This document shows, piece after piece, positions 21,861 through 39,079 of a DNA stretch of 64,000 bases. The DNA comes from Saprospiraceae bacterium (GTDB lineage Bacteria; Bacteroidota; Bacteroidia; Chitinophagales; Saprospiraceae), in assembly GCA_028279185.1 (NCBI GenBank), contig JANQSS010000043.1, positions 62,001 through 126,000 on the forward strand, in the 5' to 3' direction. The stretch's first letter is position 1. Every line of letters starts with the position of its first letter. The notes beneath the pieces are model-generated. The model ran no database searches, was not told the origin of the DNA, and saw only the letters and a program-made list of their open reading frames with translations. A program made the position numbers and the translations under genes.

Positions 21861-22580
21861 CTATTCCTCCTGATTCAATACAGCTTTAAGTCGTTCATAC
21901 CGTCCTTTAGGTAACGTATTAATAACCTCACGAGCTCTACTCTTTTGACCGAGTAAATAATATGCCATGGCTTCAACATATTTGCTTCGTTCGTACTTCT
22001 GATTAGATATGTCAAATTCTGGAAGATAATTTAATACACTATCAGGTTCCTCATGTTGCAAGTGCATTTCGGCAAGCCAATAATTTGCTTCATCGCTTGT
22101 TGAAGAAATCGATAAGAGTTGATTTTTTGCAGCTTTAAATTTTCCATTTAAATATTTACTGCTTGCCTCACTTATTATATCAACGTCTGTTTTTCTTGAT
22201 ACTTCCCACAATGGTTCGATGTAAACCTCCGCAAATGCCATTGGTCCCGGCTCATCTCCTGGGCTTATAGGATTGAACAAATAATAAATAACAAATACGA
22301 TTGTGACTAACAGTGCAAGCCAATAAAAAATAGGATGTGTTTCCCCATTTCCGAATCGTGTATTTCGATTTTCACCGTAGGTCGACTGACCTGTAGCATT
22401 TTTAACTTCCTCAAGTAATTGTAATTCAAGAATTCCTTCAGACGCTGTTTTGAGCACATCGTAATTTTCAACTTGCCGAGCCAGTTGTTTGTCTGTTTCT
22501 AAAGCAACCTCAAATTTTCGAAGCTCTTTTCCCGAAAGTTTTCCGGCTTTGAAATCATCTATGTGATCATACGGATTCAT
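21861..22580 (-). CDS. Single-TM TPR-like protein, probable anti-sigma partner
   Basis: A 239-residue protein with three parts: a charged cytoplasmic N-terminal region (about 1-85, DDFKAGKLSGKELRKFEVAL), one membrane helix (about 86-106, FYWLALLVTIVFVIYYLF), and an extracytoplasmic region with helical repeats (SKYLNGKFKAAKNQLLSIS, EANYWLAEMHLQ, EAMAYYLLGQKSRAREVI). Its ATG overlaps the end of the upstream sigma-factor gene by 4 bases, so the two are co-translated. This is the usual arrangement of an ECF sigma factor and a membrane anti-sigma protein, though I see no classical zinc-type anti-sigma motif. The layout repeats in the protein at 29145-29870. Confidence 0.7.
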   Translation of the reverse strand: MNPYDHIDDFKAGKLSGKELRKFEVALETDKQLARQVENYDVLKTASEGILELQLLEEVKNATGQSTYGENRNTRFGNGETHPIFYWLALLVTIVFVIYYLFNPISPGDEPGPMAFAEVYIEPLWEVSRKTDVDIISEASSKYLNGKFKAAKNQLLSISSTSDEANYWLAEMHLQHEEPDSVLNYLPEFDISNQKYERSKYVEAMAYYLLGQKSRAREVINTLPKGRYERLKAVLNQEE

Positions 22581-23155
22581 GAGGCCAGCATCATTTTTAA
22601 ATGTGTATTTGCATCGAGATAAACCGAAAGTTCATTTAGACAATTCATTTTTTTCCGACGCACAACGACATCGCTACTGTAATTCAGTAATTTCGCAATT
22701 TCGGCCATTTTATATCCCGATGCCCAGTACATTAACACTTCGCGGCATTTTAAGCCCAAATTATCAAGAACCTTGCTTAATAAATCCCTTTTCTCTTCAT
22801 TAATTATCTTCAAATCGACGAACGCCGATTCATCCACACGAATGTCGTCTTCTAATTCTGCAGTCGCTGTTTTACGGGCCCTCTTTTTTTGTAAAAACAA
22901 GTTGCGCGCAATTCCAAAAATATAGCTATTTACATTTGTTTTAATTGTAAAACTGCCATCGCGTAAAACATTTTTTATTAACTGTACGAGAGCATAGTTG
23001 AATATCTCGTTAAATTCCTCCTCGTTTGCACCAAGTTTTCCAATAACCTTTCGAACACCATTTTTCAACTTCGCATCGTCATACAGGTGTCTAGCAACTT
23101 TTTCTCGCCCAGCTGTTCCGCTGCGAATTAAATCGAACATTTCATTTGCCTCCAT
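22577..23155 (-). CDS. ECF-like sigma-70 family RNA polymerase sigma factor
   Basis: A 192-residue protein with sigma region 2 (about 25-95; FNEIFNYALVQLIKN and a NSYIFGIARNLFLQKKR stretch, the -10-recognition helix) and region 4 (about 130-180; LGLKCREVLMYWASGYKMAEIAKLLNYSSDVVVRRK, a helix-turn-helix shown here in part). It should direct RNA polymerase to a stress or surface regulon. It is the first gene of a two-gene minus-strand operon with the TPR membrane protein. It differs from most ECF factors in its long region between sigma 2 and 4. It is similar in layout to the sigma factor at 28589 but clearly divergent in sequence. Confidence 0.82.
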   Translation of the reverse strand: MEANEMFDLIRSGTAGREKVARHLYDDAKLKNGVRKVIGKLGANEEEFNEIFNYALVQLIKNVLRDGSFTIKTNVNSYIFGIARNLFLQKKRARKTATAELEDDIRVDESAFVDLKIINEEKRDLLSKVLDNLGLKCREVLMYWASGYKMAEIAKLLNYSSDVVVRRKKMNCLNELSVYLDANTHLKMMLAS

Positions 23156-27424: not shown

Positions 27425-27520
27425 AATACGGCTTCAGTCTAGTCTGACAAGGTATTGAATTCATATCATACGCGCGAATCCTTTCGAATTATTTATTGAC
27501 TTTACGTGCCCGTTTACCAA

Positions 27521-28480
27521 ATGATCCTTCGTTATCTATTGAGCATTAGACATCATTCTCTTCAATCACACTATCTTGCATTGGTGAATGTCTTCTTGCT
27601 ACACGACTTATTCATCTTTGTAATTGTTATAGGCGGATTCAGTATCGCCGTCTTCATTGTGCGCCGATTGTTCAATAAAAAATTATATAAAACCACATCG
27701 GAGACTATACCTGCCCGTTGGATTACCATTCTTCAACAGCAGGTTCCATTTTATGCTATGCTTTCGTCCGTCGAACAAGACCATTTTAATCAACGCGTGA
27801 TGGAGTTTTTACTAAACCATAAAATAACAGAAGCCGATACGAAAATTACAATAGAGGATAAACTATACGTAGCCGCTAGTGCTATAATTCCTATTTTCAA
27901 ATTTCCACACTGGCGCTACAGCAACCTCGATGAAATAATAATCTATCCGGGGTCTTTCAACCATCAGTTTGATACAAGGGGTAAAGGACGAAATATTCTT
28001 GGCATGGTCGGCAATGGTTATATGGAGGGGAAAATGATTTTGTCACAAAAAGCGCTTCGACTCGGATTTCAAAATACAACCGATAAAAAAAATACAGCCA
28101 TTCATGAGTTCATTCATTTAATTGATAAAATGGATGGTGTTATCGATGGTATTCCTAGGTTACTTATTGATCGACCTTACATCATACCGTGGTTAGATAT
28201 GATAAAACAAAAAGTTGAAAAAATTTACCTAAATGAATCTGACATTAATCCGTATGGCGGCAGCAGCCAAATAGAATTTTTTGCCGTTGCATGCGAATAT
28301 TTCTTCGAGCGGCCGAGGTTATTGGAAAAGAAACACCCTGAACTATACAACATGCTCGAAAACATGTTCGCTCACGATTTGGCTGACCGGCGTCCAGGAT
28401 TAAAACCTACGTCTATTGGCCGAAACGCTTCTTGCCCTTGTCAAAGTGGGCTCAAGTATAAGCATTGTTGTCTTGCCTGA
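27521..28480 (+). CDS. MtfA-like zinc peptidase with C-terminal SEC-C motif
   Basis: The protein has an N-terminal membrane helix (VFLLHDLFIFVIVIGGFS), then a domain typical of MtfA/DgsA anti-repressor peptidases: FKFPHWRYSNLDEIIIYPG, a gluzincin HEFIH motif near residue 195 and a downstream glutamate in EFFAVACEYFFERP. MtfA in E. coli binds the glucose repressor Mlc and has aminopeptidase activity. The extreme C-terminus (GRNASCPCQSGLKYKHCC) is a SEC-C zinc motif as found at the end of SecA, which is an unusual fusion for this family. I use ATG 27521; an in-frame GTG at 27506 would add five residues. Confidence 0.85.
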   Translation: MILRYLLSIRHHSLQSHYLALVNVFLLHDLFIFVIVIGGFSIAVFIVRRLFNKKLYKTTSETIPARWITILQQQVPFYAMLSSVEQDHFNQRVMEFLLNHKITEADTKITIEDKLYVAASAIIPIFKFPHWRYSNLDEIIIYPGSFNHQFDTRGKGRNILGMVGNGYMEGKMILSQKALRLGFQNTTDKKNTAIHEFIHLIDKMDGVIDGIPRLLIDRPYIIPWLDMIKQKVEKIYLNESDINPYGGSSQIEFFAVACEYFFERPRLLEKKHPELYNMLENMFAHDLADRRPGLKPTSIGRNASCPCQSGLKYKHCCLA

Positions 28481-28588: not shown

Positions 28589-29143
28589 ATGAATAGCCAA
28601 TCAAGGCTAGGAGAATTAGTTGAAGCATTTGAAGCTGACCGTAATTCAGTACTTAGATCATTGTACCTACTGTTTCGGGCAGACTTCATTGTGTTCAGTA
28701 AAAAAATGTGTTCAGACACAGAACTCTGCCTGGATAGCTTTCAAGAGGCCGTAATAAGTGTGTATGAAAATTTAACACAAAATAAAATCACCCGGGATGA
28801 CGCCTCAATAAAAACATACTTATTTGCCATTGGTAAAAATAAATTACTGACGGCAATGAAAAAACAACATACTGTAACATTTACGGATAAAGTCGCGCCG
28901 GGAGAGCAGCACGACAACAGTAATCCGGACACTGATTTAAAAGTTGCCTTGCAGCTTGCATTTGATCAATTGGGTGACACGTGTCAAGAAATATTAAAAA
29001 AGTTTTATTTCCACCGATATGCCATTGAGTCCATAATGATTGACATGCAATATAAAAATGAAAACACGGTAAAAGCACACAAATCCAGGTGTATTTCAAA
29101 ATTGAGAAAAGTTATGATGCAAAATTTGAAAAGTAGTAATTAA
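28589..29143 (+). CDS. ECF-like sigma-70 family RNA polymerase sigma factor (CHAT-locus)
   Basis: A 184-residue protein with sigma region 2 (about 20-90; DSFQEAVISVYENL and KTYLFAIGKNKLL) and region 4 (about 125-178; LGDTCQEILKKFYFHRY, then NENTVKAHKSRCISKL, a helix-turn-helix). It is followed after one base by a one-TM TPR protein and that gene is convergent with a TPR-CHAT protease. Sigma factors with this layout recruit RNA polymerase to promoters under control of a membrane inhibitor. Its overall plan repeats that of the sigma factor at 22577-23155, suggesting related but distinct systems. Target promoters are unknown. Confidence 0.82.
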   Translation: MNSQSRLGELVEAFEADRNSVLRSLYLLFRADFIVFSKKMCSDTELCLDSFQEAVISVYENLTQNKITRDDASIKTYLFAIGKNKLLTAMKKQHTVTFTDKVAPGEQHDNSNPDTDLKVALQLAFDQLGDTCQEILKKFYFHRYAIESIMIDMQYKNENTVKAHKSRCISKLRKVMMQNLKSSN

Positions 29144-29144
29144 T

Positions 29145-29870
29145 ATGGCCCTGTCCGAACATGATATAAATTTAATAGACCGTGCTTTATTTGATGAACT
29201 GTCCGGTGATGGTCTCCAAGAATTCGAGGCCAAAATGGCGGATCCGGAATTCCGGGAGGAGTGGAAAATGAGGCAGTCTATGCACGCCGTCATTGTCCAA
29301 AAATCGCGTGCTGAAATGAAAGCAGAGCTTCAATCAATAGAAAATCAGTATCCAACAACACCATCACCCAGAAAATTATTCATTTGGTTAACCATTTTAG
29401 GTGTAGCAATTGTTTCGACCGTGGTATATTTTTTATTTAGTACTGCAGCAACTCCTAAAACACCTGAGCAACTTTTCATTGCCTACTATGAGCCTTATCC
29501 AAATGAGGTCGATCCATTGACAAAGTCCTCTTCACAGCAACATATGTCCGCATTTCAATTGTATGAGTCCAAAGACTACAATTCCGCAATAGCGGAATTT
29601 GTACCCAATTTGACGGATGAAACGGCGCGGTGGTATTTTGGACAGTCAATGATGGCAACGGGTGATTATCAAACTGCAGAAGATGTTTTTAGGCAGTTTT
29701 CTCGATCCGGGGATTCTGAGTTCGCAATCCACGCCACATACTATTTAGCCCTTATTTACATAAAAGAAGGCAGAATAAACGAGGCAAAGGAATTTCTTGA
29801 AAAACTGGCCGTCAGCGAACACCCTGTTTACAAAAAAAGGTCGGATGAATTATTAGGTCAGCTCAATTAA
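29145..29870 (+). CDS. Single-TM TPR protein, probable anti-sigma factor
   Basis: A 241-residue protein that begins two bases after the sigma-factor stop. Residues 1-80 are cytoplasmic and charged (LIDRALFDELSGDGLQEFEAKM), residues about 83-104 form a membrane helix (LFIWLTILGVAIVSTVVYFLF), and the remainder is extracytoplasmic with TPR-like helices (SAFQLYESKDYNSAIAEF, WYFGQSMMATGDYQTAEDVF, HATYYLALIYIKEGRINEAKEF). This topology suits an anti-sigma protein that holds sigma at the membrane and senses something outside through TPRs. The 3' end overlaps that of the opposing CHAT gene by 4 bases. No zinc anti-sigma motif is seen. Confidence 0.72.
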   Translation: MALSEHDINLIDRALFDELSGDGLQEFEAKMADPEFREEWKMRQSMHAVIVQKSRAEMKAELQSIENQYPTTPSPRKLFIWLTILGVAIVSTVVYFLFSTAATPKTPEQLFIAYYEPYPNEVDPLTKSSSQQHMSAFQLYESKDYNSAIAEFVPNLTDETARWYFGQSMMATGDYQTAEDVFRQFSRSGDSEFAIHATYYLALIYIKEGRINEAKEFLEKLAVSEHPVYKKRSDELLGQLN

Positions 29871-32800
29871 CCACGACTTAAACGGTTGTTTATTATGTAC
29901 AGTAGAAGTAATACCAGCAATCCTATTACTATGTGATAAATCGGAAAGGATCGATTATCCAGTATTACCGGGTCGGCATTTCCAACTAATATAAAACCAG
30001 CCCAATAAAATGGATGCTTTGATTTTTCGGAAATTGCATTTGACAAATAATCTTGTTTTGCTTTTTGCAGCGCTTTGGCCTTTTCTTCCCCTTTGAATAA
30101 GTAAGTGTAAAATGATTTCATAATTTCAGATGTACTTTTGTCTGGCACCTGCCAAAGGGACATGAGCACAGAAGGCACGCCGGCATATTGAAATCCAGTC
30201 GACAAACTTCGCACACCTGATCCATTTTCAAATTTTCCAACTCCGGTTTCACATGCGCTAAGCACAGCCAAATGAGTCTTAACATCCAAATGGTAAAGTT
30301 CATGCAAGTATAATTGATCGCGACTATTGTCCGTTTTTGGGCTGAATAAAAATCGACTATTCATGGGTTGGTTGTCATCTAAAAGCGTATGCATCGAAAG
30401 ATGAACAATTGCACTATTATTTGTAGAAGTTAAAAAATGCTCCTTAAGGTTTTCCGTGAATACCTGGGTTCGACCGGCCGTGTTTTCGCGAATAAAATTT
30501 GCCTCTTCTTGCGAATAAGGCAAAGCGGTTAGTCCCTCTCGAGCGACTCCTACATCTCCATTTGATTGTGAATATATCGGTGCAAAAATGGAAACTACAT
30601 TTGGCATATCATCAATTGGGCTTTCTTGTTGTCTCGTCCAGACATCAAGTGAATTTGCATAGGAAATTGAATAGCGGTCGAGCCAACGATTATCGCCGGT
30701 CGATAATAATTCAAATGGCATAATCGCCAGTAAGTCATCGGGTGAGACAACAATCTTATTTACATGAGTTGACAATAATGACAATGGAGCTGTTAAAGCC
30801 ATTTCAAGTTCCTGCTCTAGTTCAAATATTGTCCCTTGGCTGGCAACACCCTTCAGCCATTGACGAATTGATTCTCGCGCTTGTCGCCAATTTAGTTCCG
30901 TTGTAATTGCCTGGACTTTTTCATTTGTTACAACTATGCACATTAAACTCGAATCCGATGTTACGTAATCCAAAAATGCCATTGAATCTGGTAAAGTTGA
31001 TTGTAGTAGTTCCAGGTTTATTCGTTTTGGCATTCTTTGCAAGTCGGCTGTCAAGGGATAGTCCTCCTCAATCAATTTCTCATTTTTCGAAAACGTTTCA
31101 TTCAAGTCGACTATTCGGGCAAGCAATGAATCATGTGCTCGACTATCAACATCCAATTGATGCAATGCTCTTTCGGCATGAGACAGTTCGCGGCGTAACT
31201 TACTGCTGCTCACACGTAATTTTTCCGGAACGTTCGCAAAATTATACTCAAATCGCCTTCGCAATGACTGTAGTAATCCGAGGCTTTTAATCTTATTTGA
31301 AAATATAGCAGCAAGCCGGACATTTTTTTCATCTCCACTGTTCTGAAAAGCTGCAACCAACGCGGAGATCAACATCTTGTAAAACGTCGTATAATTTGAA
31401 ACCAGATCGTTAATGTCGTCTGGGCTTTCTGCCCACTCAAACAATTGATTAAAAACTCGGTCACCATACTCACATAGCGAGATCACGGAATCAATCGGTG
31501 CTCCAAGATGGTACATCTTAGCGAAAACCTCTTTTTCAATAAAATCTAAATAAATAAATGGATCTGAACACGTATGAAATGATGACGAGCACGCTAAAGC
31601 CTCTTTACCGTTTTCAATATCCTGCATAGCTTTGTCAATTCGACCCATCCTCATGTACACACTAGCCCTGCGATTGTAGGCCCCGGCAATATGAACGTTG
31701 GTTTCACCATATGATTTTCGATAGGAGTTTATGGCCAGGTTCATATTTTCTATTGCCTTTTCAAATTGTTTAATATCCCGATAGAATATGCCGATATTTG
31801 TATAAGCGTTAGCAACATATGAATGATGGTCGCCAAACAGTTTTTTTCGAATATTCAGTGATCGATTATAGTATTCTTCAGTTTTCTGATATTCGTTTAA
31901 AAAATAATAGACACCGCCTAATTTCATTAATATGATTGCGGTATATGTATGATTTTCACCTAGCCTGCTCAAGCAAATTTCTAATGCTTGATCCAGGTAA
32001 TTTCGAGCGGTTTCAAAATCTTCAATTAATATCAATTGGCCGGATAAATTAGTATATCCTGCCATTTTTTGTATTGGCTCAGTAGATCCTTCTGCGAATC
32101 TTATTGATTTTAGATAGTATTCCCGCGCTTTGTTGTGCTTTCCAAGGTTACTGAAAATCGAAGCCTTGCGATTAAATACACGGGGAAGAAGTGTGTTTAG
32201 CATCGCGCTATCCACTTGAGCATATGCAGCCGCTGAATCTAAATAACGTAATCCTGCTATTAAATCAAATTGGTCAACGTAGCACTCTGCCATACTCAAT
32301 GCCACCTGGGCCAGGCCCTGATACTCTATAGGTTGTTTTCGTTCGAATATTTCCCAGGCTTGACTAAGATGAATGAGTGCACTGTCCAGTTGATTTTGAT
32401 TATAATAGCGTCGTCCTAAACTAAAATGACCCATCCCAATCGTTGGATGACAATCCGGCAAGTATTCTTGACAATAGTGCAAAGCCTGGAGAGAATAATT
32501 TTTAGCCTCTTTTAACTTTCCTGACTCCGCAAATGTCTTAGAAACAACTTGTAACGCAAAAGCCATTACACCTGCATAGCTTTGTGGATTTTTAATTGCC
32601 CTTATACTGGCTAAAATAATCGAATCGGTTTTCGCCTTACTGCTCGCTCTTAACTTGAAGGACGCATCGGTAAGGTTCCAAACATGAAAAACATCGTGAT
32701 CATTGCCAAGGTTAGTAATAATAAGCCGGCGAATGGAGTCAACATTAAAACTTCGCAGTTCAAAAGAGTATAAATTAACTAATGCCTTGTAGTAGTTCGG

Positions 32801-33049
32801 GTCTTGCTTCGAACTACTTTTAAGCACACGATTAAAATAGCCAATTGCCAGGGAGTCTTCTTCTGCCAGCTTAGCTGATGAACCCATATGTTGCAATGTT
32901 GCAATGTTCGTTGTGTGACTTTCAATATCCTGAGCTAAATAGGCTTTGGTCAGTTCTGAATAGTCACAATTGAACGTTTTGGTAGATAACAATTGTGCGT
33001 CTGCGCATATAGACAATAACCATAACACGACGACAAAGGGTATTCTCAC
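29867..33049 (-). CDS. TPR-CHAT protease (caspase-like), secreted and C-terminally membrane-anchored
   Basis: About 1060 residues from GTG 33049, which gives a clean signal peptide (MRIPFVVVLWLLSICADAQ); an in-frame TTG at 33151 would add 34 residues. Residues about 50-530 are many tetratricopeptide repeats (for example YVANAYTNIGIFYRDIKQFE), followed by a helical linker and a C-terminal CHAT domain (about 740-1020). The caspase-like dyad is visible: His887 in LSMHTLL and Cys933 in SACETG. A membrane helix (IVIGLLVLLLLYII) lies at the very end. CHAT domains are cysteine peptidases of clan CD, including separase relatives and the TPR-CHAT protease of type III-E CRISPR. Here the protease domain should sit outside the cytoplasm. 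It is convergent with the sigma/anti-sigma pair. Confidence 0.9.
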   Translation of the reverse strand: MRIPFVVVLWLLSICADAQLLSTKTFNCDYSELTKAYLAQDIESHTTNIATLQHMGSSAKLAEEDSLAIGYFNRVLKSSSKQDPNYYKALVNLYSFELRSFNVDSIRRLIITNLGNDHDVFHVWNLTDASFKLRASSKAKTDSIILASIRAIKNPQSYAGVMAFALQVVSKTFAESGKLKEAKNYSLQALHYCQEYLPDCHPTIGMGHFSLGRRYYNQNQLDSALIHLSQAWEIFERKQPIEYQGLAQVALSMAECYVDQFDLIAGLRYLDSAAAYAQVDSAMLNTLLPRVFNRKASIFSNLGKHNKAREYYLKSIRFAEGSTEPIQKMAGYTNLSGQLILIEDFETARNYLDQALEICLSRLGENHTYTAIILMKLGGVYYFLNEYQKTEEYYNRSLNIRKKLFGDHHSYVANAYTNIGIFYRDIKQFEKAIENMNLAINSYRKSYGETNVHIAGAYNRRASVYMRMGRIDKAMQDIENGKEALACSSSFHTCSDPFIYLDFIEKEVFAKMYHLGAPIDSVISLCEYGDRVFNQLFEWAESPDDINDLVSNYTTFYKMLISALVAAFQNSGDEKNVRLAAIFSNKIKSLGLLQSLRRRFEYNFANVPEKLRVSSSKLRRELSHAERALHQLDVDSRAHDSLLARIVDLNETFSKNEKLIEEDYPLTADLQRMPKRINLELLQSTLPDSMAFLDYVTSDSSLMCIVVTNEKVQAITTELNWRQARESIRQWLKGVASQGTIFELEQELEMALTAPLSLLSTHVNKIVVSPDDLLAIMPFELLSTGDNRWLDRYSISYANSLDVWTRQQESPIDDMPNVVSIFAPIYSQSNGDVGVAREGLTALPYSQEEANFIRENTAGRTQVFTENLKEHFLTSTNNSAIVHLSMHTLLDDNQPMNSRFLFSPKTDNSRDQLYLHELYHLDVKTHLAVLSACETGVGKFENGSGVRSLSTGFQYAGVPSVLMSLWQVPDKSTSEIMKSFYTYLFKGEEKAKALQKAKQDYLSNAISEKSKHPFYWAGFILVGNADPVILDNRSFPIYHIVIGLLVLLLLYIINNRLSRG

Positions 33050-33418
33050 ATTTCTGCATACTACACAAACATTGTATTTTTTTATTAACACTTGCAAGAC
33101 TTTTTGTCGAATCACTGTCTGGTAAGATAAGACTCTTTGAATACAGTCCAATTTTGATTCTACATTGTGGGTCTGAATGAAAAGATTTATTTTTTCGTAT
33201 AAATATTAACGTCTAATGATTACTTGACACTACCATATCTCTTCTGACGCTGTAAAGACTCATAATCGAAGTTACAGCTTCAGCGAGCTGCTGCAATTTT
33301 AATCAAACCAAAAGCTTCTCTTCATTTCGACATACGTACTATAAATCACAATGTGTAAAACTCAATAAGCTATGTGGAATCCCTATCTTTGAGTTTTTGC
33401 CATGAGTAGCTCAACCCT
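33050..33418. promoter_or_regulatory. Divergent promoter region between CHAT protease and T9SS type B protein
   Basis: About 370 bases with no ORF of its own. It serves both divergent genes. On the plus strand the box TATCTTTG at 33384 lies 27 bases before the ATG at 33419. I see no obvious minus-strand TAnnTTTG box. Confidence 0.45.
33384..33391 (+). promoter_or_regulatory. Bacteroidota -7 box upstream of the T9SS type B protein
   Basis: TATCTTTG fits TAnnTTTG, 27 bases before the ATG. A TTG -33 element is not seen at the ideal spacing. Confidence 0.5.
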
Positions 33419-36400
33419 ATGAAAAAAAATTTATCCCAGGATAACTTACACAAGTTCATGTACAGAATTTATGCAATTCCCGTTTTTATTCTTTTTGTTT
33501 TCATTTTCTGTTTGTCCGCCACCCAACCGGAATCCGATTCAATGTGCCCGGATCTGACTAGTTCAGCAAGAATTATCCAACCACAATTAATGGCACTCGA
33601 CTCATTATGTGAAACACCAACGTTTATCAAAACCTATGGGGTAAACGGTGTTGTGGAGCGCGGACATATCATCATACCGTCAAATGATGGCAACTTATAC
33701 ATAGGTGGTAATAGGGACAGTAGAACTTTATTAATTAAATCGGATACCAATGGTAATTTCATTTGGTCAAGGAGCTTTCAATTCTCCTCAAGCGATGACG
33801 TTATCACTGATTTAATTATTGATTCTGCAGGGTTCTTGTTGGGTTGTGGTTTCAGTCCGCCATTTAACTCTAATCTCACCGGATTTGCGTTTAAATATGA
33901 TGCAGCAGCAGATGTCGTCGTTTGGGTACAGCAGATCAATCAGCCTGGCCGTGCGGTCAACATTATTGAAACGAGCACTACTGACGATTACATCATCATT
34001 GGTGATCGCCGGAGTAGCCCATTTCCAGGAAACGGAGAAGATGGCGTGATGTACCGGCTCGACCGAAACACAGGGCAGCTCACCGGAGCACTGGAAAGAC
34101 ATTACCACCACGGATCCAGTGAGACCTTTGCGAGCTCCATTTTATTCAATAACGAAATCTACACTACTGGTCGATATACGAATGGTGGCGGGCCTGAGAA
34201 CATGCGCGTTGGGTTTACAAAGTTCGACTTAAATGGAAATGAAGTTTATACAAAACTCTCTCATGTTCCACTAAACAATACGGCCAGGCTCTATAGCAAT
34301 GATTTGGTAGCAGCGAATAATGAAATATTTGTTATCAGTTCTGGAGACGATGACGGGACCCTTATACCTGGCACTAATTTTTTTATTTCTAACTATTCCC
34401 TAAATGGTAATTTAAATTGGGTTAAAAAATACAATGCTCAAGGGCTTATTAATGAAGGTTCTAATGAACTTATTGCGCTTTCCGATGGATTATTGGCTTT
34501 TTGTGCCGATCGCCGGGGCGACGAAAATTATATCCTCGTCAAGACTGATTTTAACGGTACTGTTATCTGGGCCAAAAAATATGGCGGTATTGGATTCAAC
34601 AATGCATCAACTGTCACACAACATCAAATATTAGCCACTGAAAATAAACTATTCTTAGCAGGTTCTACATCTGCATTTGGATCAGGTGACACAGATATAT
34701 TATTGATGAAATTAAATATAGATGGCACACTAACAGAAAACTGTAACCTTGTTTCTGATATAATCATTGACGAATTACTCGTTTTAAATCCTGTAAATGT
34801 TGATGTATCTTTAACTAACTATCCCGCACCACTTGGATGGTCAACCGCTACCACGTCAGTGGATACCGCCATTCTACCAGGACATGACATTTGCATCATT
34901 GAGTGTGTTGAAATTTGTAATAACGGATTAGACGATGACGGTGATGGACTTGTTGATTGTGCTGATGACATCGATTGTCCTCTCATGGATTTGGCAATTA
35001 TCGACATCGAGTTGTCCTGTTCCGCAGGTCGTGTTATTTCTAGTTTAATGATTTGCAATCTGGGAAATGCTGAGGCCGGACCGGTGATTAATTTAGGTAT
35101 ATATGATGGTAATCCAACATTTGACACATCAGCCATAGCTCTCGAAACAATTTTGCTCGATACCCTTGTCGAACCTGATAGTTGCCTTTTAATCGAAGTA
35201 GAATTAAATACAGCTACTTCCAACTATACATTCATAATAAATGATGATACGTCTTTACTACCAATCTTTGATTTAGCAATCGATTTCCCTTCTACGGACT
35301 CCATAGAATGCAATTATTTAAATAATCTTTTTGAACGTGAGCTTCTTGTTTCTTCTCCACCTCTTGATTTAGGACCCGATACTTCCATTTGTTTAGAAAG
35401 CGAAATAATTTTGGAAGTTAATCTTGCCTGGGACTCTGTCTTATGGCAGGATGACAATACGAATTATTCCTATACAGTAAGTGCAGCCGGGATCTACCAT
35501 GTCCAGGTAGTGGATATTTGTGGTAGGTATTTTTTCGACACAATAGAGGTTTTCAATTTTCCAAAAACTCGTTTGGATCTAGGAGAAGATACCATAGTAT
35601 GTTCAGGTCAAAATGTGTTGATAAATGCGCAAGGACTCAACAATTATTTATGGCTTCCGCAAACAGCTGTCCCTTGTTCAACTTGTCCTGAAAACACCAT
35701 AACCGTCGACACACCACTATGCTTAGTTGTGGTGGCAGATGATGAAAATGGATGTATAACCGCCGATACAATCAAAATTGATGTAACAAATGACACTATA
35801 TTTAACTCATCCTACTATACAATATGTGCAGGAGATTCAATTGAAATTTTTGGTATATTTTATAATCAGGCCGACACGTTCAGCGTATTACGCGATTCAT
35901 TTTCCTGCACACGATTAGATAGTATATTTATCCAATCCCAGTCAACACAGTTGACGTACGACACCATATATTCTTGCTCAAACTCGACGGAAGTCATTTT
36001 TGGCGACACGATCTTCCTTCCGGGATCATATAGTAGGATATTTCCGTCGTCAAACGGTTGCGATTCGGTTCATACTATCACATGGATATGGTCGAATGAA
36101 ATTGATTTATCAATTACCCCCGAAGCGCGCGTATGTCTCGGTGATTCAATTATGATTGAAGCAATAACAGCCGATGACTTACTCACCTATTCATGGAATC
36201 CACCAGTTGGGTTATCCTGTGCTGATTGCTTACAACCCACCGCCTTTCCTACCGTTACGACGTTGTATGAATTGCGTGTTAGTGATACTGCAGGCTGCAC
36301 CGACAGTCATTTTACCACAGTTTATGTTGAATCGTTTAAATCGATATTTATTCCAAGTGCATTCAGTCCAAATAACGATGGTATAAATGATCGATTGGTT

Positions 36401-36631
36401 GTATATGGCTCTAAAGATGTTTTATTGGTTCGAGAATTTTCAATCTATAATAGATGGGGTGGAAAGGTATTCGAATCCGTCAACTTTCCACCAAACGATA
36501 AAACCTTTGGCTGGAATGGAACAAATAATGATCAGGTTCTTGATAATCAGATATTCGTTTATAATGTCATCGTAGAGTTTGTTGATGGAACACAGCGAAA
36601 CCTTCAAGGTAACATTATGTTAATACGTTAA
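33419..36631 (+). CDS. Large secreted protein with T9SS type B (gliding-motility-like) C-terminal domain
   Basis: A 1070-residue protein. An N-terminal hydrophobic segment (IPVFILFVFIFCLSA) serves as signal peptide. Residues about 70-440 are repeats of the kind GNLYIGGNRDSRTLLIKSDTNG, a probable beta-propeller. Next comes a cysteine-rich CNNGLDDDGDGLVDC motif (about 500-520) and a CARDB-like adhesion segment (about 525-640), then repeated beta-sandwich modules containing CSGDS- or CAGDS-like starts. The C-terminus (FIPSAFSPNNDGINDRL, IYNRWGGKVFES and a WNGTNN turn, ending NIMLIR) is the type B sorting domain used by the type IX system, which usually leaves cargo released or attached by a different route from type A. 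It is a probable surface or extracellular adhesin. Confidence 0.87.
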   Translation: MKKNLSQDNLHKFMYRIYAIPVFILFVFIFCLSATQPESDSMCPDLTSSARIIQPQLMALDSLCETPTFIKTYGVNGVVERGHIIIPSNDGNLYIGGNRDSRTLLIKSDTNGNFIWSRSFQFSSSDDVITDLIIDSAGFLLGCGFSPPFNSNLTGFAFKYDAAADVVVWVQQINQPGRAVNIIETSTTDDYIIIGDRRSSPFPGNGEDGVMYRLDRNTGQLTGALERHYHHGSSETFASSILFNNEIYTTGRYTNGGGPENMRVGFTKFDLNGNEVYTKLSHVPLNNTARLYSNDLVAANNEIFVISSGDDDGTLIPGTNFFISNYSLNGNLNWVKKYNAQGLINEGSNELIALSDGLLAFCADRRGDENYILVKTDFNGTVIWAKKYGGIGFNNASTVTQHQILATENKLFLAGSTSAFGSGDTDILLMKLNIDGTLTENCNLVSDIIIDELLVLNPVNVDVSLTNYPAPLGWSTATTSVDTAILPGHDICIIECVEICNNGLDDDGDGLVDCADDIDCPLMDLAIIDIELSCSAGRVISSLMICNLGNAEAGPVINLGIYDGNPTFDTSAIALETILLDTLVEPDSCLLIEVELNTATSNYTFIINDDTSLLPIFDLAIDFPSTDSIECNYLNNLFERELLVSSPPLDLGPDTSICLESEIILEVNLAWDSVLWQDDNTNYSYTVSAAGIYHVQVVDICGRYFFDTIEVFNFPKTRLDLGEDTIVCSGQNVLINAQGLNNYLWLPQTAVPCSTCPENTITVDTPLCLVVVADDENGCITADTIKIDVTNDTIFNSSYYTICAGDSIEIFGIFYNQADTFSVLRDSFSCTRLDSIFIQSQSTQLTYDTIYSCSNSTEVIFGDTIFLPGSYSRIFPSSNGCDSVHTITWIWSNEIDLSITPEARVCLGDSIMIEAITADDLLTYSWNPPVGLSCADCLQPTAFPTVTTLYELRVSDTAGCTDSHFTTVYVESFKSIFIPSAFSPNNDGINDRLVVYGSKDVLLVREFSIYNRWGGKVFESVNFPPNDKTFGWNGTNNDQVLDNQIFVYNVIVEFVDGTQRNLQGNIMLIR

Positions 36632-36699: not shown

Positions 36700-38805
36700 C
36701 TACGGGCATATACCAATTATTCCTTCGAATTCTGCGCCCAATGGAACTTCAAAATCCTGATTCAAAAAGAGTTCATTTGACTTCATCATTACATTTGCAT
36801 TAGCAGCTAATGATACTGAAGCTGTAATACTGATGTTTGCATCGTAATTACCCGTCGTGATTGGTAGACTATTAAAAACTAGATGATCATTTGGACAGTT
36901 TCCAAAATCGATATTAAAGCTTTCGTCAGATATATCGAATATTATATGTCCTACAGCTCGTACTTTAATGCGCGCTTGTGAAGAATTAATATTTGGAAGC
37001 GCTACATATTCATTTCCATCATTGGCCGTTCCGCTAAGTAAGGTATAGGAATACGTCTCCCCATCGTCATCTGACAACAATATATCAACCGCACTGACAT
37101 TAAATGGAGCCATATTTGTTCCTGAAGTATTCCAAGAAACGAAAACTGATGTTCCTGCAACAAAGCTTTCACTACCATTTGGAGATGTGATTGCGAACGG
37201 TTCGGCTTCCCCGAGCACGGTAACAATCATATCATCCTCTTCCGTACAACCATAGCCTTCGGCTAGATTATAGTCTCGCACTGTAAGCCTAAAGTCAAAC
37301 ATGCGATCGACTTCTGCTAATACTTCCCACGTATTAGGTTTGCCTTTATCGGGAAACTCGCGCGTCGAGGAGGACTTTGGGTTTACAGAACGAAAGTTCG
37401 GCCCTTGTGTATTATTACTTTGTGGAGGCTGAGTTGAAACGTCATTATTGTACTGTTCCCAGCAGAAAGTCAGTGGATTCCCATCACTATCTGTCGCTGT
37501 ACCTGTAAGCGCAAATGCTGTACTTCGCGGAACGCTGTAATCAGCACCAGCATTGGCCGTGGGCGCATTATTGATCGTGGAAAGTATAACGTCACATGAG
37601 CCTCCTGTACTCGTATTAGTCACAAATGCCGCCATTTCGCCCACGTTGATTGCATGAAAATAATCGTCGCTATTCGGTTGCACATTGGGGTTACAAATTC
37701 CCGCATATCCCATGATCGTGGAGGCGCTACCGGGTTCATAGGAAGCATAACTTCGATTGCAACTGTTGTTTTGCGTGTGATTTCCACCATATTGATGACC
37801 CATTTCATGGGCTACATAGTCAATGTCAAAGGGGTCTCCAACCGGTGTATTCCGACCCGTTACTCCACGTGCCTTCCTATTACTATTACATGGCGAGCGC
37901 AGTGAGGCTACCCCCCCACCTCCTGTAGAAAATACATGACCAATGTCATAGTTGGATGTTCCTATATAATCGTCACAGGTTGTTTGATTTTGGCCCAACA
38001 TGGTACCGCCACTGCCATTTGTATACGGATCTGTGGAACCATCCAGGAAGATGAGCGTATCGTTATTTTCAACCATTACCATTGTCAATCCTGCATCCCG
38101 TTCGAAAACACCATTGACACGATTCATCGATGTATTGAAGGCCGACATAACCTGACCTACTGTTCCTCCATGAAATTGAGCATACTCTCCCGTACAAGCC
38201 AAAGCCAAACGATACTCTCTAAATTGACAATCTCCCGCCGACCTTCCATCCATCGTGCTGAAAAACGGATCTTTATCATGTTCTGCATGGCATTCGAAAG
38301 GTTCCGTTGGCGCAGGATAGTCTGATTTATAATAGACCATATAAAGGTCTTCAGCTACATTATAAGGATCAATAAATATCGAACCATTATCTCCTCCACG
38401 AATCAATCCGTGAAATCCATTGCGGCCGAAGTCTATTTTGACTACCAGTTGTTCATGTTCAACTCCATGGCCTGTATAGGCTCTAATATCGTCGTACTTG
38501 CGTTGCAATTTCGGTGCCATAGTAGGGGACTGTTGAAATTCAAATGTGCGAAGTGTTCTGTCTGGCATGGGTAATTGAATCTGTACCGCGTGGTGTACGT
38601 CGTCAAACCGGCTTGAAGCCATCGCCAACTTGTCAAAGAGCTTGTCGTAATCTTTAAGCTGAAAAAGGGCAAAATGATGAGGAGTTTCCAGGGCCGTAGT
38701 TTTTTGATGGACATCTATATTTAATTGCAACTGCCAATCAGTTTGTGCTTGAATTGTGGTTGTGCAAAAGATAGTATAGATCATTAGCAGTATTGGACGC
38801 TTCAT
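36700..38805 (-). CDS. Secreted zinc metalloprotease, reprolysin-like (M12B-like)
   Basis: About 701 residues from ATG 38805, which gives the signal peptide MKRPILLMIYTIFCTTTIQAQ; the longer frame is rejected. After a propeptide region with GHGVEHEQLVVKIDF comes a metzincin catalytic domain (about 190-400) with HEMGHQYGGNHTQ starting at residue 333 and GYAGIC as the likely Met-turn region (IMGYAG). Then follow a cadherin/PKD-like domain (ANAGADYSVPRSTAFALTGTATD), a second beta domain and a C-terminal segment ending FEVPLGAEFEGIIGICP. The protein should degrade extracellular protein. The tail is unlike T9SS types A and B but resembles the end of the 44.3 kb protein. Confidence 0.9.
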   Translation of the reverse strand: MKRPILLMIYTIFCTTTIQAQTDWQLQLNIDVHQKTTALETPHHFALFQLKDYDKLFDKLAMASSRFDDVHHAVQIQLPMPDRTLRTFEFQQSPTMAPKLQRKYDDIRAYTGHGVEHEQLVVKIDFGRNGFHGLIRGGDNGSIFIDPYNVAEDLYMVYYKSDYPAPTEPFECHAEHDKDPFFSTMDGRSAGDCQFREYRLALACTGEYAQFHGGTVGQVMSAFNTSMNRVNGVFERDAGLTMVMVENNDTLIFLDGSTDPYTNGSGGTMLGQNQTTCDDYIGTSNYDIGHVFSTGGGGVASLRSPCNSNRKARGVTGRNTPVGDPFDIDYVAHEMGHQYGGNHTQNNSCNRSYASYEPGSASTIMGYAGICNPNVQPNSDDYFHAINVGEMAAFVTNTSTGGSCDVILSTINNAPTANAGADYSVPRSTAFALTGTATDSDGNPLTFCWEQYNNDVSTQPPQSNNTQGPNFRSVNPKSSSTREFPDKGKPNTWEVLAEVDRMFDFRLTVRDYNLAEGYGCTEEDDMIVTVLGEAEPFAITSPNGSESFVAGTSVFVSWNTSGTNMAPFNVSAVDILLSDDDGETYSYTLLSGTANDGNEYVALPNINSSQARIKVRAVGHIIFDISDESFNIDFGNCPNDHLVFNSLPITTGNYDANISITASVSLAANANVMMKSNELFLNQDFEVPLGAEFEGIIGICP

Positions 38806-39079
38806 GATTTTGGGCTTAAATTTTGAAATGATAAAAATAGTCGGAAGTTGTGAAGAAAAAGAAAATTCGTGGTTACAGATGTATAAAAATGGATTGTAAT
38901 TGGGTATACACTGCGAATCAGGAGTCAACATTTAAACGGTATTGCATAAAAAGCAATAACTCAAAAGGATACCGGATTGCCTTTCTCTGCACATTGTTAA
39001 TAAGATTTCAAACGAGTTTTGTCGCTTTTGGTCGTTTTGAATGTCTGTAATTTAAAAAATGAATCAATTCCATATTTCG
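38806..39079. other. Intergenic gap of about 270 bases
   Basis: Between two minus-strand genes. It should contain the metalloprotease promoter. On the minus strand I see TATTTTTA but not a full TAnnTTTG match. No hairpin with a T-run was seen. Confidence 0.25.

Follow-up and report, generated by a model that had tools for sequence, protein, structure and literature searches.

Does a protease-triggered transcription switch underlie the adjoining genes of a sigma factor, a membrane-bound tetratricopeptide repeat (TPR) protein and a TPR-CHAT protease? The question is raised by positions 28589-33049 of a 64,000-nucleotide stretch of Saprospiraceae DNA (contig JANQSS010000043.1 of assembly GCA_028279185.1), here called the window, for which an original prediction, made from the letters and open reading frames alone, had proposed such a switch. 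We observe that this triad is real and that it recurs both within its genome and across Bacteroidota, and sequence distances indicate that its three proteins coevolve. We rate it as reasonably probable that the three genes form one signalling module, in which the TPR-CHAT protein would cut its anti-sigma partner and thereby free the sigma factor.

A recurrent triad

The triad and the parts of its products are as follows.

28589-29143, + strand: ECF-type (extracytoplasmic function) sigma factor gene, 184 residues, from the open reading frame list and profile matches
29145-29870, + strand: gene of the anti-sigma-like TPR protein with one transmembrane helix, 241 residues
29145-29345, + strand: putative cytoplasmic anti-sigma-like domain of the TPR protein, residues 1-67, from the model and from family N-termini that match anti-sigma profiles
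29379-29441, + strand: single transmembrane helix of the TPR protein, residues 79-99, N-terminus predicted cytoplasmic
29442-29534, + strand: conserved juxtamembrane segment of the TPR protein, predicted extracytoplasmic, LFIAYYEPYPN...K, residues 100-130
29535-29864, + strand: TPR hairpins of the TPR protein, predicted extracytoplasmic, residues 131-240
29867-33049, - strand: TPR-CHAT protease gene, 1060 residues from GTG at 33049
32993-33049, - strand: signal-peptide-like N-terminus of the CHAT protein, MRIPFVVVLWLLSICADAQ, read from the sequence
31598-32698, - strand: TPR superhelix of the CHAT protein, kinesin-light-chain-like, about residues 118-484
29978-30814, - strand: CHAT domain, residues 746-1024, E 3e-55, best folds Csx29 and separase
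30389-30391, - strand: catalytic His887 of the CHAT protein, from alignments
30251-30253, - strand: catalytic Cys933 of the CHAT protein, from alignments
29873-29944, - strand: C-terminal transmembrane helix of the CHAT protein, residues 1036-1059

The gap between the stop codon of the sigma factor gene and the TPR reading frame is exactly 1 base, and the convergent TPR and CHAT genes overlap tail to tail by 4 bases. The CHAT reading frame stays open upstream of GTG 33049, to a TTG at 33151 (- strand). This agrees with the original description of a sigma factor gene followed after one base by a one-helix TPR protein with a cytoplasmic N-terminus, and of a convergent TPR-CHAT protein whose His887/Cys933 dyad is intact, both of which are also borne out by the transmembrane predictions and alignments given below.

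The source genome (5.39 Mb, 324 contigs) contains 24 CHAT matches at E ≤ 1e-5 and, according to an independent ECF profile, 62 ECF-like sigma factors. Fifteen of the latter have a CHAT gene no more than about 2.5 kb away, where about 2 would be expected (binomial about 1e-9, computed for 3.0% of the genome), and each of the fifteen pairs with a one-helix TPR gene. A single-sequence search with the window TPR protein gave nine further matches in the genome at E ≤ 1e-5, all nine adjoining CHAT genes, whereas the stretches within 2 kb of CHAT genes make up about 3% of the genome. Gene maps show 14 CHAT genes with an adjoining sigma-TPR pair, the order being convergent in some and co-directional or divergent in others. 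Triads form a paralogous family with about fifteen copies in this genome, which makes cognate and non-cognate pairs directly comparable.

All 41 genomes searched have TPR-profile matches, a count inflated by generic TPR proteins, and 28 of the 41 have CHAT; at least 37 of the best 84 TPR matches in relatives lie less than 8 kb from a listed CHAT gene. We mapped 60 loci, of which 40 were picked for a CHAT neighbour, so that counts from these are not unbiased. At 20 loci across the phylum picked by TPR similarity alone, the one-helix TPR protein is present in 20/20, a recognised sigma factor in 19/20, and a CHAT gene within about 5 kb in 10/20, other orders and classes included. The CHAT gene is convergent with the pair in 25 cases, divergent in 21 and co-directional in 12, indicating that the linkage is not that of one frozen operon.

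The distance matrices of 56 triads correlate for all three combinations (0.31 for sigma-TPR, 0.38 for sigma-CHAT and 0.43 for TPR-CHAT), the distances being plain identity and the size of r therefore rough. Shuffling partners within genomes, which takes out species history, gives p values of 0.0012, 0.0002 and 0.0006, respectively, and the 14 triads of the source genome alone give 0.0006, 0.0004 and 0.02. The original prediction had named conservation of the three-gene association in relatives as a test beforehand, and both the triads across Bacteroidota and these within-genome correlations support it. CHAT and TPR copy numbers also correlate across genomes (0.81, and 0.46 after genome size), which adds weak support for a module.

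The anti-sigma candidate and CHAT are encoded by separate genes in all 56 triads. A single-protein scan for distant named relatives retrieved only a Cyclobacteriaceae CHAT protein, whose gene has no such pair. At one locus from another class (L146, 5949-9997), the CHAT gene is split, apparently by inversion: the catalytic half (250 residues, with a signal-peptide-like start and a C-terminal transmembrane helix) directly follows the TPR anti-sigma gene, whose product carries an Hx3Cx2C zinc motif, and the rest of the gene, rich in TPRs, is convergent on the opposite strand. A rearrangement or gene breakage may lie behind this; provided that the product works, the catalytic half travels with the anti-sigma factor.

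The sigma factor, its putative inhibitor and the protease

The window sigma factor appears from its profile matches to consist of the sigma2 and sigma4 regions only, as is typical of the ECF type. It matches TIGR02937 (ECF) over residues 23-175 with E 9.2e-11 and 41.6 bits, just below the cut-off of 42.9, and its subfamily profile matches the SigL, SigW and RpoE structure chains. In a tree of 55 sigma rows from the genome, whose bootstrap is not fully settled, a branch with 100/98 support sets the triad sigma factors apart from 36 other ECFs. The triad side comprises the 15 CHAT-near sigma factors, the second sigma factor of the window and one further TPR-paired sigma factor, as well as two poorly assigned long-branch rows, which we disregarded. 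By this comparison the window protein is a member of a separate ECF subfamily, one whose genes pair with TPR anti-sigma genes.

Exactly one transmembrane helix is predicted in 78 of 79 TPR homologues, at a median residue of 84 and at about residue 79-99 in the window protein. Lysine and arginine number 4.0 before the helix and 1.2 after it, which points to a cytoplasmic N-terminus, and the positive-inside bias gives this orientation in 72 of the 78. The AlphaFold model of the window protein (predicted local distance difference test, pLDDT, 91) shows three N-terminal helices (5-15, 21-30 and 34-67, with pLDDT 88-97 per block), followed by the transmembrane helix, a short helix and TPR hairpins that resemble the YbgF TPR domain (TM-score 0.79 by target). 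The N-terminal helical layout of this model is fitting for an anti-sigma role.

We searched the N-terminal 73 residues of 40 homologues against anti-sigma profiles. The most frequent match, although weak (best 4.9e-5), is the NCBIfam anti-sigma factor NF052375, in 20/40 homologues, followed by a putative anti-sigmaE model in 9/40 and zf-HC2 in 8/40, also with weak E-values; the N-terminus of the window protein itself, searched alone, gave no anti-sigma profile match. The Hx3Cx2C signature, which marks zinc-type class I anti-sigma domains (PMC7406223), occurs in 3/99 homologues. The sigma factor gene lies upstream of the TPR gene in 75/79 cases, with a median gap of 6 bases. Taken at the sequence level, the TPR protein is probably the anti-sigma factor of the adjoining sigma factor. 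Class I anti-sigma domains are reported beside only 6% of the ECF sigma factors of Bacteroidota (PMC7406223); for one ECF subfamily of this phylum, the triad would supply both an anti-sigma family and a candidate for the activating protease.

Outside the membrane, the juxtamembrane segment (residues 100-130) might serve for cleavage or docking. Its position 127, about 28 residues outside the transmembrane helix, is Arg or Lys in 51/56 CHAT-linked homologues, and Lys in the window copy.

The CHAT protein matches PF12770 at 3.4e-55 and TPR_12 at 3e-34. Among 68 CHAT sequences, the dyad Cys is present in 68 and the His in 67, the remaining one having a gap, equally in triad and non-triad copies; in a 43-sequence alignment H887 and C933 are both invariant. 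The window protein is a CHAT protein by both its fold and its His-Cys dyad. The SLWxVxD motif keeps, in 65/68 sequences, an acidic residue that in separase probably reads Arg at P1.

A hydrophobic N-terminal segment is found in 53/56 triad CHAT proteins and a C-terminal transmembrane helix in 42/56. The linker between the conserved Trp that ends the CHAT domain and this helix is near-constant (17-24 residues, median 20), and the tail beyond the helix is basic, with 3.1 Lys/Arg and 0.2 Asp/Glu. From the N-terminal hydrophobic segment, the C-terminal helix, the short linker and the basic tail, we predict that the catalytic domain lies on the outer side of the inner membrane, which is consistent with the anchored, extracytoplasmic CHAT domain originally predicted.

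The model of the CHAT protein (pLDDT 81) has its best fold match in the whole PDB with Csx29 from the Cas7-11/Csx29/Csx30 complex, followed by separase, so the analogy to Csx29 drawn in the original prediction is apt. Separase, the eukaryotic cohesin protease, likewise combines helical repeats with a caspase-like protease, but has no sigma factor.

Proposed proteolysis, known systems and alternatives

Among PDB chains, the triad CHAT profile best matches DdvA (8rot and 8rw5, E 6.7e-11, with both His and Cys aligned) and then the Craspase TPR-CHAT proteins, and DdvA is also among the top fold matches of the CHAT protein. The abstract of Bernal-Bernal 2024 reportedly describes DdvA as a periplasmic TPR-CHAT protein with an incomplete active site, for which autoproteolysis followed by RseP was proposed. 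In Myxococcus, DdvA is experimentally established as the cognate anti-sigma factor of DdvS (PMC4374960), and DdvS controls an antiphage island according to the passage of a later paper that cites Bernal-Bernal 2024 (PMC12288465). DdvA-DdvS of Myxococcus xanthus thus shares with the triad an ECF sigma factor, a transmembrane anti-sigma factor and a CHAT domain. Nevertheless, DdvA joins anti-sigma factor and CHAT in one chain of 991 residues, whereas the window system uses two genes, its anti-sigma candidate having its own short TPR domain and its protease a separate signal peptide and C-terminal anchor; both dyad residues are in place here, and the source genome carries about 15 copies. This cis-fused relative, the paralogous family and a second sigma-TPR pair in the window all go beyond the original prediction.

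The type III-E CRISPR (clustered regularly interspaced short palindromic repeats) system likewise places a TPR-CHAT protease, Csx29, beside an inhibitor, Csx30, and the ECF-like CASP-sigma: Csx29 cuts Csx30, which inhibits CASP-sigma, and acts with Cas7-11 upon an RNA trigger inside the cell (PMC10028731). In the window, by contrast, the inhibitor candidate is a one-helix TPR protein, and the protease, like its target region, is predicted to be extracytoplasmic. We found no CRISPR-like direct repeats between 20000 and 42000, as originally noted for the locus, and a CRISPR link was ruled out locally by this lack of repeats near the triad. No cas-like genes occur among the neighbours examined, a genome-wide Cas7-11 search not having been made. 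With a protease predicted to be non-cytoplasmic and no nearby repeats, the triad does not appear to be a Craspase.

A third comparison is with the regulated intramembrane proteolysis of anti-sigma factors, as in DegS/RseP-RseA and RsiW, which share with the triad a membrane-spanning anti-sigma factor, an encoded M50 protease and, as we infer here, extracytoplasmic site-1 cleavage. The genome encodes an RseP-type M50 protease, although such proteases are near-universal. In place of one shared serine protease, the site-1 candidate would be a separase-like cysteine protease linked by gene to each anti-sigma factor.

Building on gene content, conservation, coevolution, topology read from the sequence, the intact dyad and the fold, we propose that the module works as follows. 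The TPR protein would be a membrane-spanning anti-sigma factor whose cytoplasmic N-terminal helices, judging by homology, bind and silence the adjoining ECF sigma factor, whose single helix crosses the inner membrane, and whose juxtamembrane segment and TPR hairpins lie outside the cytoplasm. The TPR-CHAT cysteine protease, secreted and C-terminally anchored, would be tethered on the outer side of this membrane, where its large TPR superhelix might sense an envelope or extracellular signal. CHAT would then most likely make a site-1 cut in the juxtamembrane part of the anti-sigma factor with which it is paired, where the conserved Arg, replaced by Lys in the window copy, offers an attractive target; RseP-type intramembrane cleavage and release of the sigma factor would follow. 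On this analysis, CHAT is most likely a dedicated site-1 protease for its partner: site-1 proteolysis in trans is the most economical account, because the two proteins share a membrane face, the tether height is fixed, the dyad is strictly selected and the closest relatives cut regulators. Of the protease-triggered switch originally predicted, the association and the predicted location of CHAT have thus gained support, and the cut itself is one that we infer.

On a larger scale, we see roughly even chances that Bacteroidota have evolved a CHAT-anti-sigma switch in trans, in which separase-like anchored periplasmic proteases, one per anti-sigma factor, form a new class of site-1 protease for regulated intramembrane proteolysis and insulate up to about fifteen sigma channels. 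We found no paper on a CHAT protein and a TPR anti-sigma factor encoded by neighbouring but distinct genes in Bacteroidota, in a search that missed most subscription literature and the main ECF classification. The triad links the Csx29/Csx30 and DdvA switches to a widespread system, which suggests that sigma release under the control of CHAT is a theme found generally in bacteria.

Several observations weigh against proteolysis by an adjoining CHAT. Sigma-TPR pairs without CHAT make up 19/75 of the shorter aligned TPR homologues, and 8-9 CHAT genes of the source genome lack a sigma-TPR pair, so that neither part strictly depends on having the other as a neighbour. The window itself holds such a CHAT-less pair, 5.4 kb from the first:

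22577-23155, - strand: second sigma factor gene, same subfamily, no adjoining CHAT gene
21861-22580, - strand: second TPR anti-sigma-like gene, paired with the sigma factor gene at 22577-23155

In seven of the 78 one-helix homologues the cytoplasmic N-terminus is short, the first two anti-sigma helices being absent, and the mode of sigma binding may differ. In addition, the juxtamembrane Arg/Lys shows no significant drop in homologues that have no CHAT nearby (16/19 against 51/56, p 0.41) and is not a CHAT-specific mark, which leaves the cleavage site a guess; a CHAT-specific mark in this segment, for which the difference in Arg only gave p 0.04, was rejected as unconvincing. Finally, one family of pairs (f39) is possibly an older, CHAT-independent branch.

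The absence of a site-specific CHAT-linked signature in the juxtamembrane segment would also suit a non-proteolytic control, in which the CHAT protein is a periplasmic co-sensor whose TPR-TPR contacts alter the hold of the anti-sigma factor, and its catalytic activity is used for self-activation or on a different substrate. TPR surfaces lie outside the cytoplasm in both proteins, and the coevolution test shows only that the two travel together and change together. We nevertheless consider this unlikely, given the essentially invariant dyad in the 56 triad CHATs, the fixed linker to the membrane helix, and the fact that Csx29 and separase, the closest folds, both cut a partner.

Somewhat less likely again is that CHAT is an output, in which case another signal would switch the pair, and CHAT would be a neighbouring regulon gene, encoding an executioner or surface protease made upon sigma release. 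ECF sigma factors commonly control neighbouring genes, and in 23 convergent triads the upstream regions of the sigma and CHAT genes are slightly more alike within than between triads (p 0.05), but this signal is marginal, and a shared promoter motif was rejected. Moreover, CHAT occurs in all orientations, and its distances track those of sigma and anti-sigma factors within genomes, as a mere regulon member need not.

A role in defence or programmed death as a system of its own, like that of the DdvA-DdvS antiphage-island switch or type III-E CRISPR, is quite improbable: known CHAT-sigma systems do regulate antiviral functions (PMC10028731, PMC12288465), but PADLOC gave no triad match beyond a weak generic TPR match, defence-like genes are only scattered single cases among 94 triad neighbours, CRISPR-like repeats are absent between 20000 and 42000 of the window, and triad copies are many per genome.

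Unpaired copies and neighbouring genes

The CHAT loci of the source genome that lack a pair are L021, L024, the second copy of L026, L028, L029, L031, L034 and L040. Their TPR-CHAT proteins mostly keep the same signal peptide and C-terminal anchor, and may act on unlinked anti-sigma factors or other targets. In the f39 family (L147, L148 and L149), the sigma-TPR pair stands at a fixed locus, with no CHAT in two of the three, and is convergent with a polyphosphate kinase gene in both typed copies (L147 and L149). The short-N-terminus TPR homologues, with a cytoplasmic part of 42-57 residues, are those of L038, L027, L039, the first pair of L036, L113, L118 and L126. Just downstream of the second pair of the window (21861-23155, - strand), the gene at 20003-21022 matches M29 metallopeptidases.

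We found no constant fourth gene beside the triads, and no different protease that recurrently replaces CHAT beside the CHAT-less pairs. Proteins with a type IX secretion system (T9SS) sorting tail make up 19/94 triad neighbours and were rejected as triad partners, the genome having at least 150 such tails, which by a rough estimate puts this number near expectation. A defence link was likewise rejected, there being no enrichment among the triad neighbours.

In the window, the triad is adjoined at 33419-36631 (+ strand) by a gene for a protein of 1070 residues with delta-60-like repeats and a T9SS type B sorting tail, beyond which the 743-residue protein of 36700-38931 (- strand) reads like a secreted metalloprotease. 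Upstream of the sigma factor gene, 27506-28480 (+ strand) encodes 324 residues with a C-terminal Cys-rich SEC-C-like motif, MtfA-like by eye. Two proteins encoded next to triads match the thiol-activated cytolysin family, the best at 3e-37.

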